The notes under the pieces are model-generated. The model was not told where the DNA came from, ran no database searches, and was given only the letters and a program-made list of their open reading frames with translations. Below, one piece after another: positions 6,789 to 19,957 of a stretch of 23,448 nucleotides of DNA (position 1 is the first letter of the stretch; every line of letters begins with the position of its first letter). This stretch comes from a virus. The position numbers and the translations under genes were made by a program. Where the stretch lies: IMG/VR virus record IMGVR_UViG_3300025767_000129, positions 1 to 23,448 of that record, one strand, 5' to 3'.

Positions 6789-6841
6789 AATGTACTCCTT
6801 TTTATGTTAAACTCTATTGTGGTATTAGAGATGATATATCT

Positions 6842-6870
6842 ATTATAAACAGCTCGACTGCATATGTCAA
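6842..6870 (-). promoter_or_regulatory. Early sigma-70 promoter for the 63-aa gene
   Basis: Perfect TTGACA-17-TATAAT on the minus strand with AAAACCA before the -35. It is the first promoter of the leftward arm. Expected start near 6835 gives a leader of about 46 bases before the ATG, longer than for the other early genes. Confidence 0.9.
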
Positions 6871-10724: not shown

Positions 10725-10787
10725 CGATCTGATAATGGAGCGGATCCTAAGCCTAATTCAAAATATTTCGCGCAGGAATAAATAATA

Positions 10788-11696: not shown

Positions 11697-11704
11697 AATA
11701 AATA
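11697..11704 (+). promoter_or_regulatory. T4-late-type promoter octamer (AATAAATA)
   Basis: AATAAATA preceded by CT and followed by G lies 25 bases ahead of the gp19-like ATG. The same octamer precedes the tail-fibre-like gene at a similar distance. One mismatch from TATAAATA. It fits gp55-dependent expression of a virion gene placed among early genes. Confidence 0.6.
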
Positions 11705-12848: not shown

Positions 12849-12877
12849 TTGACATTCACAGTGAAACCTGTTATAAT
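12849..12877 (+). promoter_or_regulatory. Early sigma-70 promoter for uvsY
   Basis: Perfect TTGACA-17-TATAAT preceded by AATAACCA. It begins three bases after the stop of the 203-aa gene. Expected start near 12884, 25 bases ahead of the uvsY ATG. It should read through uvsY, the two unknown genes and uvsW, which are all tightly coupled. Confidence 0.9.
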
Positions 12878-12908: not shown

Positions 12909-13346
12909 ATGGATACGAATGATATAGCAGCAATATGGGCAGCTGACTCGCCAATAGATGAAACCAACCTCCTAGGTGAAAGTAAAAGAATCCCATCGTT
13001 ACACAGTAAGTACTATAATCTTTATTATAGGGAAGTCTTGCGTGTTAAAAAGTTAAAGGCAGAATATAAAGAATTGGAAATGGACAAACGTAATTGGTAC
13101 GATGGTTCTATGGCCGAAGAAGATCTGAGAGAAAAAGGATGGAAGCCGTTTCAAAGAAAGGTAATAAGAAACGATTTGGATAAACATATTCAAGCAGACA
13201 AAGATGTTATTAAATTAAGTCTTACGATTGATTTCCATACGGCAAACGCAAACTACCTCGAAGATATTATTAAAACAATACACAGTAGAAACTTCATTGT
13301 TAAGAATATGATTGATATATTGAAGTTTCAGTCTGGAGATTACTAA
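12909..13346 (+). CDS. uvsY: UvsY recombination mediator
   Basis: A 145-aa helical protein (T4 UvsY is 137). Residues 30-60 contain LHSKYYNLYYREVLRVKKLKAEYKELEMDKRNWYDG, which matches the UvsY helix 'kYxxlyxxExlrlkkLexexkkl...k..YY.G'. The later ADKDVIKLSLTIDF and IIKTIHSRNFIVKNMIDILKFQSG match the conserved 'aDkdVlk...l......ldaIksRgFaIkhmiD...F..G'. UvsY helps load the RecA-like UvsX on single-stranded DNA coated by gp32 during recombination-dependent replication. No uvsX lies in this window. The downstream gene begins directly after its stop. Confidence 0.93.
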   Translation: MDTNDIAAIWAADSPIDETNLLGESKRIPSLHSKYYNLYYREVLRVKKLKAEYKELEMDKRNWYDGSMAEEDLREKGWKPFQRKVIRNDLDKHIQADKDVIKLSLTIDFHTANANYLEDIIKTIHSRNFIVKNMIDILKFQSGDY

Positions 13347-13565: not shown

Positions 13566-14029
13566 ATCCATACGCAGCAGATATATCTGAAGAATTAAAA
13601 AGAACCATTTATAATGGCTTTTGTTCTATTCAGGAAATCAAAGGAATACCATTAAGAACTCAACAAGGTATGTTACTTGCATTAACTGGTATGTTAAAAG
13701 AACATGGTTGGGCAGTGATTGGTATTACTGAAGCAGCTGCATTACGTATTCAAGAGAACGAATATAAAAGACCAAAGAAAATCAATCGTGCACATATCTA
13801 TTCAAGAAAAGAAACAGCAGAGATTCTATTTTCGAAGTATTGGACATATACTGATTTTTGGGATTTCTTTTTAGAACGTGATTGTTGTGTATTAGCAACA
13901 TCTAAGGAAAATTATTCAAAACAACCCGAAGACCTATGGAGACAAGTACCAAAGGGTATGTTTCAATCTGTAGGGTTTGCATTTAAATGTGGAAAAGAAG
14001 AAGCAGGATGGCTTAAAGAGCAATTATGA
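13562..14029 (+). CDS. Hypothetical protein, 155 aa, between uvsY and uvsW
   Basis: A soluble alpha/beta protein. The N-terminal half has helices ISEELKRTIYNGFCSIQEIKG and TQQGMLLALTGMLKEHGWAVIGIT. The middle KKINRAHIYSRKETAEILFSKYWTYTDFWDFFLERD is basic then aromatic, followed by CCVLATSKEN and a C-terminal GMFQSVGFAFKCGKEEAGWL. The 'NRAHI.SRKETA.ILF' and 'VLATSKEN' stretch hints at an HNH-like or other nucleic-acid enzyme, but I cannot place a full catalytic set, so no function is given. It overlaps both neighbours by ATGA, so it is translated with uvsW and may share its process. Confidence 0.75.
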   Translation: MNPYAADISEELKRTIYNGFCSIQEIKGIPLRTQQGMLLALTGMLKEHGWAVIGITEAAALRIQENEYKRPKKINRAHIYSRKETAEILFSKYWTYTDFWDFFLERDCCVLATSKENYSKQPEDLWRQVPKGMFQSVGFAFKCGKEEAGWLKEQL

Positions 14030-15519
14030 GTGAAAGAATAGAAGTAGAATTAATTGATTCAGTATATATGCGCATTAAAGCGGATGCTGGATTAAAAACA
14101 GAGTTGTCTGATTTCTTTGCGTTTAAACCAGAAGGTTATCAGTTCAGTCCAAAATACAAAGCAAGAGTATGGGATGGAACCATTCGGTTGTTTCAAGCAA
14201 TGCGTCCTGTATTGTATGTTGGTCTATATCCGCATCTAAAAAAGTTTTGTGAACAAAGAGATTATATTTTAGAGGCACCAGCGTCAATAGCAGAACGGGA
14301 GAATATCGAAGATGGCTACGTTGAAGAGTTGGCTGAAGAAATTAATTGTAAGTTTAAACCAAGAGACTATCAAATTGAGTACATCAATAACGCTCTGCGT
14401 AACCGTAGATCTTTATCTCTATCACCGACATCATCTGGTAAGTCTTTAATTATTTACCTGATACAACAACATTACTATCAAGCACTCGGTTTAAGAACAT
14501 TGATTATTGTTCCTACGATATCTTTGGTACATCAGATGGCTGGTGACTTTGTTGATTACGGTTGTGATGAGAACTCTATCTATAAAATACAAGGTGGTGT
14601 TGATAAGAATACGAAAGCACCGATAGTAATCTCTACTTGGCAATCTTTGGTCAAACAAGATAAGGATTGGTTTGGTCAATTTGGTTGTGTGATGGGAGAT
14701 GAAGCTCATACCTTCCAAGCAAAGTCATTAACAACTATTATGCATAAACTTGAACATTGCGAATTCCGTCATGGATTTACTGGTACTCTAAAGTCTGCTG
14801 AAAGTAAAACTCATAGATTAGTACTCGAAGGTTGTTTCGGAGAAGTAAAAAGAATCGTATCTACAAAGAAATTAATGGACGAAGGTACGGTTGCTGATTT
14901 TGAAGTAAAGGCTATTGTATTGAATCATAGTAACGAAGCGAAGGCTGCGTTTAAAAAGGCAATGGGACAGGTAAAAGAATCTGTTAAGAAGTGGCCTGCT
15001 GAACGTGAATTCATAGTGAATCATACAGGTAGAAACAATTTTATTAAGAACCTTGTACATTCTTTAAAAGATCAGAATAACTTAATTCTATTTGACTTGG
15101 TTGAGAAACACGGCAAGATACTTGAACCTATGCTTCATAAAGAAGGACGTGAACTACATTTTATTTACGGTGCTACGAAAGGAGAAGAACGTGAACGCAT
15201 TCGACATTTGGTTGAGAACGACCCTGATAAGAAACATGATATACTCGCATCCTATGGAGTCTTTAGTACTGGTGTTAATATTAAACGACTTGATAATGTA
15301 ATCTTTGCTTCTTCGAGTAAATCTGAGATTAAAGTATTACAATCAATTGGTAGAAGTTTGCGTAAAGCTGAGGACTCGCAGAAAGCGGTCCTCTATGATA
15401 TCGCTGATGATTTGTCGGTGGGAAGTTACGAAAACTATACATTAAAACATTTTAAGTCGAGAATCGAAATCTACTCTTCAGAGGAGTTTGCATTTAAGAT
15501 CTTTACAATTGATATCTAA
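14026..15519 (+). CDS. uvsW: UvsW RNA-DNA / DNA helicase
   Basis: A 497-aa superfamily 2 helicase, close to T4 UvsW (about 500). The N-terminal domain (1-100, YKARVWDGTIRLFQ) matches the UvsW substrate-recognition domain. Helicase motifs are RDYQ (113-116), Walker A PTSSGKS (134-140), DEAH (225-228), FTGTL, STG (SYGVFSTGVN) and motif VI QSIGRSLRK. UvsW unwinds R-loops and branched DNA, turning off origin-dependent replication and driving recombination-dependent replication. In T4 it is a late gene. Here it is coupled to uvsY and early transcription, and an opposing early promoter sits just past its stop (15551-15579). Confidence 0.95.
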   Translation: MSERIEVELIDSVYMRIKADAGLKTELSDFFAFKPEGYQFSPKYKARVWDGTIRLFQAMRPVLYVGLYPHLKKFCEQRDYILEAPASIAERENIEDGYVEELAEEINCKFKPRDYQIEYINNALRNRRSLSLSPTSSGKSLIIYLIQQHYYQALGLRTLIIVPTISLVHQMAGDFVDYGCDENSIYKIQGGVDKNTKAPIVISTWQSLVKQDKDWFGQFGCVMGDEAHTFQAKSLTTIMHKLEHCEFRHGFTGTLKSAESKTHRLVLEGCFGEVKRIVSTKKLMDEGTVADFEVKAIVLNHSNEAKAAFKKAMGQVKESVKKWPAEREFIVNHTGRNNFIKNLVHSLKDQNNLILFDLVEKHGKILEPMLHKEGRELHFIYGATKGEERERIRHLVENDPDKKHDILASYGVFSTGVNIKRLDNVIFASSSKSEIKVLQSIGRSLRKAEDSQKAVLYDIADDLSVGSYENYTLKHFKSRIEIYSSEEFAFKIFTIDI

Positions 15520-15550
15520 TCATACTATATACCTTAAAGCCGATAGTCTT

Positions 15551-15579
15551 ATTATACAAGGACTTTTGGTAAATGTCAA
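15551..15579 (-). promoter_or_regulatory. Early-type promoter directed antisense into uvsW
   Basis: On the minus strand a perfect TTGACA-17-TATAAT preceded by AAAAAACTA. Transcription should begin near 15544 and run leftward into the 3' end of uvsW, which lies on the plus strand. No minus-strand gene follows. The core and flanks are as good as those of promoters that serve genes here, so chance is unlikely. Confidence 0.85.
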
Positions 15580-15616: not shown

Positions 15617-15645
15617 TTGACATGCAAGAGTAAATAGATTATAAT
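15617..15645 (+). promoter_or_regulatory. Early sigma-70 promoter for gene 55
   Basis: Perfect TTGACA-17-TATAAT preceded by AAACCA. Expected start near 15652, about 30 bases ahead of the gene 55 ATG. It is back to back with the antisense promoter at 15551-15579. Confidence 0.9.
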
Positions 15646-15681: not shown

Positions 15682-16215
15682 ATGGCTAAGAAAAAGAACT
15701 ACGTAAACAATAAAGATCTCCTTGCCGCATTAATCGAATATAAGAGTAAGTGCGTCGAGGCAGAAGAAAGTGGAGAGAAGAATCCACAAGTGCCTGATTA
15801 CATCGGCAAGTGCATTATGTTAATTGCCCAACGATTAGCAACACGACCAAATTTCAGTGGATACATGTATAAAGAGGAAATGGTCTCAGACGGAATAGAG
15901 AACTGTCTACAATATATACATAACTTTAATCCAGAGAAATCTCAAAACCCATTTGCTTATTTTACGCAAATCATTTGGTATGCATTCCTACGCAGAATCT
16001 CGAAAGAGAAGAAGCAGATGTATATTAAATTTAAAGCATCACAAAGACAAACGCTTGAGAATGAAGTATTTGATTCTACTGGTGAAGCTGTGTCCGCTAA
16101 TATATTACCTGATTACATTAATGAATTCATTGATGATTTTGAAGGCAAGCTTAAAGCGGCAAAAGTAAAGAACGATGCTGACGCAGAAGAAAAAAAGAAC
16201 AACGCAGCTGAGTAA
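15682..16215 (+). CDS. 55: Late-promoter sigma factor gp55
   Basis: The 177-aa product matches T4 gp55 (185). The N-terminal YVNNKDLLAALIEYKSKC is the hallmark, followed by the region 2-like IGKCIMLIAQRLATRPNFSGYMYKEEMVSDGIENCLQYIHNF-type helices (about 40-82) and FAYFTQIIWYAFLRRISKEKKQMYIK. The factor replaces sigma-70 on host RNA polymerase and directs it to the late octamers such as 5043-5050. Residues 160-177 are charged and disordered; T4 gp55 ends in a sliding-clamp-binding tail, and I see only a weak match to it here. AAGGAG stands 12 bases upstream, somewhat far. Driven by an early promoter, as expected for a switch factor. Confidence 0.94.
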   Translation: MAKKKNYVNNKDLLAALIEYKSKCVEAEESGEKNPQVPDYIGKCIMLIAQRLATRPNFSGYMYKEEMVSDGIENCLQYIHNFNPEKSQNPFAYFTQIIWYAFLRRISKEKKQMYIKFKASQRQTLENEVFDSTGEAVSANILPDYINEFIDDFEGKLKAAKVKNDADAEEKKNNAAE

Positions 16216-16220
16216 AAGTT

Positions 16221-16610
16221 ATGTTAGATTATGATAACCCATTTGATTGGAAGAAACCTTCTATTCAAATTGTAGGTAAATGGCAACCCTGGCATGCAGG
16301 TCATACAAATTTATTTAAAAAGGCCTTGACATTCACAGGACAAGTTGTTATAATAGTCAAAGAAGTATATAAATCGGAAGGAGAAGACGCTCCATTCGGT
16401 GAGATAGATGTTATCAATTCTATAACGATAGCACTAGAAAGAGAAGGCTTCTATGATGGACAGCATTATGTTATAGTATGTACTCCAAATATTGTTGGGT
16501 CCCTCAACGGACTTGGTAATGGAATATCTAACTATGATATGAAACCGTCTAAAGATTATATTATGTCAAGTGAAATTAGACAATCATTGAGAGAAGAAGG
16601 TAAATTATGA
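16221..16610 (+). CDS. Cytidylyltransferase-like nucleotidyltransferase, 129 aa
   Basis: A short HIGH-type nucleotidyltransferase. The ATP/CTP-binding motif is GKWQPWHAGH (19-28) with His25 and His28, following a strand IQIVG. The C-terminal motif MSSEIRQSLREEG is the family's 'iSSTxIR'-type phosphate-binding segment. At 129 residues it is a minimal form, like the glycerol-3-phosphate or NMN/pantetheine-phosphate transferases but lacking specific signatures. Similar genes are annotated as cytidylyltransferase next to gene 55 in marine T4-like phages. Substrate unknown. It overlaps the deformylase gene as ATGA and contains a perfect promoter at 16326-16354. Confidence 0.8.
   Translation: MLDYDNPFDWKKPSIQIVGKWQPWHAGHTNLFKKALTFTGQVVIIVKEVYKSEGEDAPFGEIDVINSITIALEREGFYDGQHYVIVCTPNIVGSLNGLGNGISNYDMKPSKDYIMSSEIRQSLREEGKL
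16326..16354 (+). promoter_or_regulatory. Early-type promoter inside the nucleotidyltransferase gene
   Basis: Perfect TTGACA-17-TATAAT with TTGACATTCACAG like the uvsY promoter. It lies in codons 36-45 of the nucleotidyltransferase, and a transcript from it would begin near 16361 and carry the deformylase, 47 and 46 genes but not the full nucleotidyltransferase. Confidence 0.7.
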
Positions 16611-18248: not shown

Positions 18249-19957
18249 GAATTAACTTTGAGAAGGTTAAATATAAAAACATACTATCGACAGGAAACGT
18301 ATTTACAACAGTTGAACTAAATCAAGTTCCTAGTACATTGATCGCAGGATCAAATGGTTCAGGTAAAAGTACATTGCTTGATGCAATTGTATTTGGTCTA
18401 TACGGCCGACCTTTTCGTAATATCAACAAAGCACAGCTTGTTAACTCTATTAATAATAAAGAACTCATTATAGAATTATACTTTACAGCAGGTGGTGATA
18501 AGTACAAAATCCTTCGTGGTATCAAACCTAATCTCTTTGAGATATGGAAGAATGGTGCAATGATTAATAAAGATGCATCTATTCGAGACTATCAAGGATT
18601 CCTCGAAGACGATATTCTAGGTATCAACTTTAAAGCATTCAATCAAATCGTAGTACTTGGTTCTGCTACTTATATTCCTTTTATGGAATTGAGAGCATAT
18701 CAACGTCGAGAGATTATCGAAGACCTATTGGATATTCAAGTATTCTCTGTTATGGGTACATTGGCAAAAGAACGTATGTCAAGTATCAAGACTGATATTA
18801 ACGAAAACAAATACGAAATAGAAATGGTTGAGAGCAAAATCGTATCTCAAGAAGAAAGCGATGAAGCAATACGTAATCTAAAATCTATTGAAGTTGATAA
18901 GATCAAAGAAAAGATGAGTGGTCATATCGATGATATAGAAACTAAGAATAGTACTATTGATTCTCAAGATGAGATTATAAAAGTACTCTACGACGATATC
19001 TCTGATAAACCTGAAGAAAAGAAAAAGTTCTCTGATGCAACCGAAAAGAGAGCTGAACTTGAAAGATCTCGTGTTGCGTTTGAAAAGGAACTATCGTTCT
19101 ACGAACACAATGATGATTGCCCAACATGTAAGCAGGGTATTGCCCACGACTTTAAACAAGAACAAATTATAGATAAGAATCAACAGAAGGCTAAGATTGA
19201 GAAAGGTCTTGTTGAAATAGCAGACGTACTTACAAAACATCAGACTCGTTTAGGTTCTATCTCAAAAATCGAAGAACAGATTCAATCAGTTAACTTTAAG
19301 ATCTCTGAGATCCGAGCTGAAATCAAAATGTCCAAGAATGCTCTAATGAGTTATAAAAAGGAACTTGATAATGCTCAAAAGGAAGTTGCTGAAATTGATA
19401 CTTCTAAACTTGAGAATCTACAAAAGAGAATAGATAAGCTAACTGCAAGTCGTACTGAACTTCTTGATGAACATGAGGTACTCAATATTGTTCAATTGAT
19501 ATTGAGAGACGGTGGTATCAAGGCAAAGATTATTTCTCAGTACATTCCTGTAATTAATAAACTTATCAACAAGTATCTTGCTGCGTTTGATCTGTTCGTT
19601 GACTTTCAACTTGACGAAGAGTTTAATGAAGTAATACGTTCAAGGTTCAGAGACAAGTTCACCTATGCTAGTTTTTCCGAAGGTGAGAAACTACGTATCA
19701 CACTATCAATCATGTTGGCTTGGAGATCAGTTGCTAAACTGAGATCCTCCGTTTCAACTAACCTATTGATACTTGACGAAACACTCGATGGTGCATTGGA
19801 TGGAGTTGGTATTGAAAGTTTGATTGAAACACTACATGGATTGAATAACGATGACAACATCTTTGTGATATCGCATCGTGGTGATCAGTTCGCTGAAAAG
19901 TTTGAGAACAACCTCAAGTTTGAGAAAATCAAGAACTTCTCGGAGTTAGTACAATAA
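18245..19957 (+). CDS. 46: Recombination nuclease subunit gp46 (Rad50-like)
   Basis: A 570-aa SMC/Rad50-type ATPase (T4 gp46 is 560). Walker A GSNGSGKS (35-42), a coiled coil from about 170 to 420 rich in Glu and Lys, a zinc hook CPTC (292-295) near its middle, the ABC signature SFSEGEK (476-482), Walker B LLILDET (507-513) and the His switch ISHRG. With gp47 it forms the end-resection complex of recombination-dependent replication. Its order 47-46 is the same as in T4. A new early promoter begins three bases after its stop. Confidence 0.96.
   Translation: MRINFEKVKYKNILSTGNVFTTVELNQVPSTLIAGSNGSGKSTLLDAIVFGLYGRPFRNINKAQLVNSINNKELIIELYFTAGGDKYKILRGIKPNLFEIWKNGAMINKDASIRDYQGFLEDDILGINFKAFNQIVVLGSATYIPFMELRAYQRREIIEDLLDIQVFSVMGTLAKERMSSIKTDINENKYEIEMVESKIVSQEESDEAIRNLKSIEVDKIKEKMSGHIDDIETKNSTIDSQDEIIKVLYDDISDKPEEKKKFSDATEKRAELERSRVAFEKELSFYEHNDDCPTCKQGIAHDFKQEQIIDKNQQKAKIEKGLVEIADVLTKHQTRLGSISKIEEQIQSVNFKISEIRAEIKMSKNALMSYKKELDNAQKEVAEIDTSKLENLQKRIDKLTASRTELLDEHEVLNIVQLILRDGGIKAKIISQYIPVINKLINKYLAAFDLFVDFQLDEEFNEVIRSRFRDKFTYASFSEGEKLRITLSIMLAWRSVAKLRSSVSTNLLILDETLDGALDGVGIESLIETLHGLNNDDNIFVISHRGDQFAEKFENNLKFEKIKNFSELVQ

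Follow-up and report, generated by a model that had tools for sequence, protein, structure and literature searches.

An early-type promoter conserved at the uvsW–gene 55 border of T4-like phages points antisense to uvsW and carries a putative start-site hairpin

The window analysed, meaning the whole stretch of DNA, was a 23.4 kb (23,448 nucleotides) IMG/VR record of a T4-like phage which, judged by its relatives (cyanophages, pelagiphages and Melnitz), is probably marine. Its UvsW protein shared only ~45% identity with the nearest named relatives. Rightward genes included those for topoisomerase II (7055 and 8932), an FkbM-type methyltransferase (10910), the tail tube (11730), peptide deformylase (16607), gp47 (17187), gp46 (18245) and DNA polymerase (20015). 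Between the tail tube and deformylase genes, the plus strand carried uvsY (12909..13346; PF11056, phrog_231), uvsW (14026..15519, 497 aa; PF21241 with the helicase domains PF04851 and PF00271) and gene 55 for the late sigma factor (15682..16215, 177 aa). The latter was assigned from homologues annotated as gp55 in cyanophages and pelagiphages, and its match to the Sigma70_r2 domain was weak. In T4-like phages, gene 55, which redirects RNA polymerase, and uvsW, which ends origin replication, are the early-to-late switches.

The spacer between these two genes carried an early promoter on the minus strand (15551..15579), 32 bases past the uvsW stop codon, which ends at 15519. Its -35 element TTGACA (15579..15574) and -10 element TATAAT (15556..15551) form the core TTGACA-tttaccaaaagtccttg-TATAAT, which matched the sigma-70 early-promoter rule (TTGACA/TATAAT, spacer of 16–18 bp) at 12/12 positions with a spacer of 17 bp; transcription would be expected to start at ~15544, an A 7 nt past the -10 element. 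The gene 55 early promoter (TTGACA-17-TATAAT, 15617..15645, plus strand) was divergent from it, with 37 bp between the two -35 hexamers. Another perfect early promoter (12849..12877, plus strand) preceded both uvsY and uvsW, and was present upstream of uvsY in most relatives having the antisense promoter. An earlier, sequence-only reading of the window had described the minus promoter as perfect, back to back with that of gene 55 and without a gene to serve, and had assigned uvsW to an early unit with uvsY; all of these points were borne out. The minus-strand genes of the window all lay left of 6.8 kb, and in its right half the antisense promoter alone opposed the direction of the genes, the other promoters running along them. 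With spacers of 16–18 bp, the window held 12 perfect cores and no 11/12 core, indicating that perfect cores form a genuine class in this phage; 0.016 perfect 17-spaced cores were expected from base composition. One perfect early promoter (16326-16354, plus strand) was located within ORF 16221-16610, which precedes the deformylase gene, and was found inside the same gene also in the relatives G001, G002, G003 and G007.

For near relatives, 148 loci with both uvsW and gene 55 gave 62 distinct intergenic sequences for comparison. The minus-strand core was kept at the same place with 12/12 matches in 56 of the 62, with 11/12 in two, and was absent in four; the spacer of the 12/12 cores was 17 bp in 30 and 16 bp in 26. 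Among 33 non-redundant sequences, identity was 100% in the -35 and 99% in the -10 element, compared with 43–53% in the spacer and 60% in the upstream flank, and purifying selection on the core relative to spacer and flanks was observed in this set. From these comparisons, it is nearly certain that the antisense promoter is a selected element. Loss in close relatives that keep the gene order, which the earlier reading had named as evidence against its proposal, was not found, except that one older clade (~76% UvsW identity) lacked the promoter. The four sequences without it (L053, L057, L061 and L071; also L054 and L080) formed this single clade in the UvsW tree, corresponding to one loss. The clade keeps uvsW next to gene 55 with a much shorter spacer of only 56–71 bp, its gene 55 promoter is weaker (10–11/12), the early promoter upstream of uvsY persists, and a late promoter, TATAAATA (AATAAATA in L061), lies ~37 nt before uvsW.

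A minus promoter upstream of gene 55 was also found in most of the far groups tested (HTVC008M, Mosig, P-SSM4, Syn9, S-CAM3, DLP_6 and phiM12). It was weaker in MED4-213, degenerate in Melnitz with only the -35 element left, and absent in Cr30 as well as in Bhz51 and CZ01, where gene 55 is without its own promoter region or spacer. Among 216 distinct regions upstream of gene 55, 149 scored 11/12 or better for a minus core and 196 scored 10/12 or better (47 at 10/12); composition shuffles of the same regions gave 6 and 29, respectively (23 at 10/12). The backward promoter spans T4-like phages of the marine cyanophage, pelagiphage, Sinorhizobium and Stenotrophomonas groups. In the far relatives, uvsW is often separated from the antisense promoter and gene 55 by a small gene, so that an RNA of ~0.4–0.5 kb would be needed to reach uvsW in most of them, and the constant partner of the promoter is gene 55 or the unit border rather than uvsW alone. 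Judged by gene order, the promoter marks where the uvsY-uvsW(-x) unit gives way to the 55-47-46 unit in phages ordered uvsW-(x)-55.

No minus-strand ORF conserved across the relatives followed the antisense start site, and a hidden minus-strand gene was rejected on this ground. In all five long relatives the promoter was an orphan, and this applied to the uvsW–55 minus promoter only. In phiM12, a Sinorhizobium phage, an annotated minus ORF of 51 codons (L182, 4830-4982) comes right after its copy of the promoter. From 14.0 to 15.55 kb, the minus strand showed no terminator-like site. An Rfam search yielded no match above threshold, and a synonymous-site test of the uvsW 3′ codons under the predicted antisense RNA revealed no extra constraint; a conserved or trans-acting small RNA was rejected on these two results. 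The position opposite the neighbouring gene and the lack of a conserved minus ORF would suit a cis-antisense RNA. As neither a conserved minus ORF nor synonymous constraint was found, action in cis is likelier than action through a protein or a sequence-specific small RNA, and an effect of the predicted RNA would probably be exerted in cis. A literature search found no report of antisense RNA at uvsW or gene 55. CfrI of cyanophage S-PM2 (PMC2984593; PMC5931967), the function of which is not established, has been described as the first antisense RNA of a T4-like phage. CfrI belongs to another locus, is ~225 nt long, connects psbA with the gene of a homing endonuclease and has measured expression, whereas the uvsW–55 transcript is a prediction from sequence.

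Directly abutting the -10 element of the antisense promoter, and centred on its expected +1, was an inverted repeat, AAGAC-TATC-GGCTT (15537..15550, minus strand, one A.G mismatch), a conserved dyad which the sequence-only reading did not mention. Near relatives carried AAGGTT-atc-AACCTT, AGAAC-tatcc-GTTCT and others at this site, and dyads were likewise found in HTVC008M (AGGCA-tg-TGCCT), Mosig (AACGG-tgt-CCGTT), P-SSM4 (AAACC-gtgtaga-GGTTT), DLP_6 (TTCAGG-tgtcg-CCTGAA) and phiM12 (CAGGA-atg-TCCTG). The arms covaried, their sequences differing among relatives while complementarity was kept. In the four main groups, 79, 75, 48 and 73% of the distinct sequences had stems of at least four pairs, compared with 15, 13, 14 and 7% in shuffles of the same groups and 11–33% at the gene 55 promoter of the same phages. 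The centre of the dyad mostly lay 6.5–8.5 nt past the -10 element, the usual +1, and the loops (TATC, TGT, ATGT) could provide a pyrimidine-purine-pyrimidine start. A second minus promoter of the window (6842..6870), which serves a 63-codon ORF and diverges from the topoisomerase promoter, was followed by the dyad AGAT-atatc-ATCT (6841..6829), which has the same TATC loop with other arms and is also covarying and kept in relatives; the dyad is therefore not specific to antisense RNA. Start-site dyads were absent from ~30 other minus promoters nearby, and with the gene 55 promoters lacking them as well, a general property of early promoters was rejected.

Interior imperfect pairs of the stems, read on the minus-sense strand, comprised 16 distinct G.T cases and not a single A.C (p = 3e-5 on the assumption of independence, which holds only partly). 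One reading is that the minus-sense strand folds, the other that its cytosines, when exposed by the polymerase, deaminate more; either way, the non-template strand of the antisense promoter is implicated. At the level of sequence comparison, it could be shown that the dyad is of a kind that would fold as a hairpin on the minus-sense strand. The calculated energy of this hairpin as DNA was weak in the window (-0.3 kcal/mol) and ranged from -2 to -4.3 kcal/mol in relatives. A hairpin in plus-strand RNA, or a uvsW terminator, was rejected as the main reading, since the bias of 16 to 0 fits the minus-sense strand only; a U tract was also missing from the tail, and the second dyad site was without an evident plus transcript. 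A hairpin within the minus RNA is unlikely, with the 5′ arm at -6..-2, before any usual start.

The earlier reading had proposed that an early antisense transcript serves to delay UvsW. T4 delays UvsW by means of a late promoter, and the protein unwinds origin R-loops (PMC3016281). Keeping UvsW late would be a purpose common to T4 and the phages studied here, T4 using a late promoter and the present phage, as proposed, an early antisense one. No late promoter was found at uvsW itself in the window. The nearest late signal upstream was an ATAAATA motif before the tail tube gene (11698..11704, plus strand), whose position was kept in relatives. The motif was depleted in the window (4 matches compared with 11.2 expected in shuffles), and two plus-strand copies (10778-10784 and 11698-11704) sat just before ORFs.

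Early in infection, the host sigma-70 polymerase would fire leftwards from the spacer that also holds the gene 55 promoter, and would carry a non-coding RNA backwards across the 3′ end of the unit whose last gene is uvsW. Convergent transcription and sense-antisense pairing would then most likely damp the unit's early expression or its read-through in cis. Once gp55 redirects the polymerase, the early promoters would fall silent and UvsW would rise with late read-through. This damping of the uvsW unit is put forward tentatively, with somewhat less than an even chance of being correct. In its favour, a conserved promoter of the early type is aimed antisense at the 3′ end of uvsW, and the clade without it has the late promoter close to uvsW. 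The loss of the one together with possession of the other fits the timing idea, as a single event. A canonical late promoter adjoining uvsW was restricted to that clade and to L154, which has both. Against the proposed delay, some phages combine the antisense promoter with late motifs 43–400 nt before uvsW (L154, L074, L082, L156, L042, L064 and others), the small gene of far relatives would be met first, and the 3′ end of uvsW is free of extra synonymous constraint. The early promoter that persists before uvsY in the clade without the antisense one, the occurrence of the dyad at a promoter serving a small gene and the weak hairpin of the window also count against it.

Nearly as likely as damping of uvsW is a role in gene 55 expression or unit insulation. 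The divergent promoter might tune the gene 55 promoter, through competition for polymerase, a shared upstream element or transcription-driven negative supercoiling, or might insulate gene 55 from late read-through. Taken as the sole target, gene 55 is a possible but on balance unlikely explanation. The antisense promoter stays with gene 55 whether or not uvsW adjoins, is missing where gene 55 has no promoter region (Bhz51, CZ01), and its loss in the promoter-less clade goes with the weaker gene 55 promoter mentioned above. The two promoters are interleaved in P-SSM4-like phages (-35 gap of -16 bp; TTGACAAGTTTGTCAA) and therefore exclude each other. Across the main groups, however, the gap between the -35 elements spans -16 to 75 bp, giving no fixed geometry, and a competitor would need no conserved start-site dyad.

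An R-loop replication origin resembling T4 oriF, in which the antisense RNA would prime the leading strand and a hairpin of the displaced strand would hold the R-loop open, is improbable. The promoter of T4 oriF, or ori(uvsY), likewise drives transcription toward the uvsW 3′ end, according to a record note at 115321, R-loops at T4 origins are the substrate of the phage's own UvsW, and oriF needs only a promoter and an unwinding element (PMC3016281). The dyad at the uvsW–55 border is predicted to fold on the minus-sense strand, which would be the displaced one, and a conserved RNA sequence is lacking, as it would be for a primer. Four-fold-site GC skew, however, did not change at the site in four contigs, a weak test under recombination-driven replication, and the AT-rich stretch lies upstream rather than downstream of the minus start. 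The promoter is of the early type, unlike T4 PuvsY, a MotA middle promoter which serves uvsY and has no dyad after the -10 element. T4 PuvsY (L433, 2480..2360, minus strand) does have a perfect CACGT-taaa-ACGTG repeat, situated just upstream of the -10 element and not downstream.

There is only a slim chance that the promoter is a relic, or serves a small leftward gene occasionally, with the dyad as a repressor operator. The phiM12 ORF, the small gene served by the second dyad promoter and the location of the dyad over +1, a common place for operators, would agree with such an origin, but conserved minus ORFs were not found elsewhere and a relic would not hold a 12/12 core over such divergence. 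Half-sites were conserved neither among close relatives nor between the two sites of the window; unlike in a protein operator, the arms differ and yet stay complementary. That the promoter is a functionless by-product of AT-rich sequence or of promoter symmetry is hardly credible: two reports describe symmetrical bacterial promoters as commonly transcribing in both directions (PMC10268837, PMC12825309), but the promoters treated there share symmetrical core elements, whereas the uvsW–55 spacer, likewise divergent, has a full -35 and -10 for each direction; moreover, selection acts on the core alone, and the promoter recurs in several far phage groups well above shuffle controls.

To return to antisense damping of uvsW, the dyad would most likely act by way of a hairpin that the non-template strand forms when exposed in the initiation bubble, and this hairpin would control open-complex stability, promoter escape or factor recruitment. 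It is doubtful, though conceivable, that the locus represents an undescribed promoter type of T4-like phages, a sigma-70 start site in the loop of a covarying non-template hairpin (-6 to ~+8) that would act as an early antisense switch at the uvsW/55 border, timing the R-loop helicase relative to the late sigma factor. A literature search did not find such a start-site hairpin rule described. The ops element read by RfaH differs in acting during elongation and in having a fixed sequence with a stem of ~1–2 bp, whereas the uvsW–55 hairpin straddles +1, has covarying arms of 4–6 bp and no known reader. The promoter would be an old piece of a timing circuit placed between two switches and invisible to gene annotation, and the hairpin offers a rule for initiation that is concrete and can be tested at the level of sequence. 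Antisense starts on the minus strand are predicted at ~123,698 in Syn9 (NC_008296.2), ~125,239 in P-SSM4 (AY940168.2), ~80,260 in HTVC008M (KC465899.1), ~22,203 in phiM12 and ~20,481 in DLP_6, each to within 2 nt. The HTVC008M genome also contained two further 12/12 minus promoters (19462..19434 and 23571..23543), both antisense inside structural genes and without dyads.
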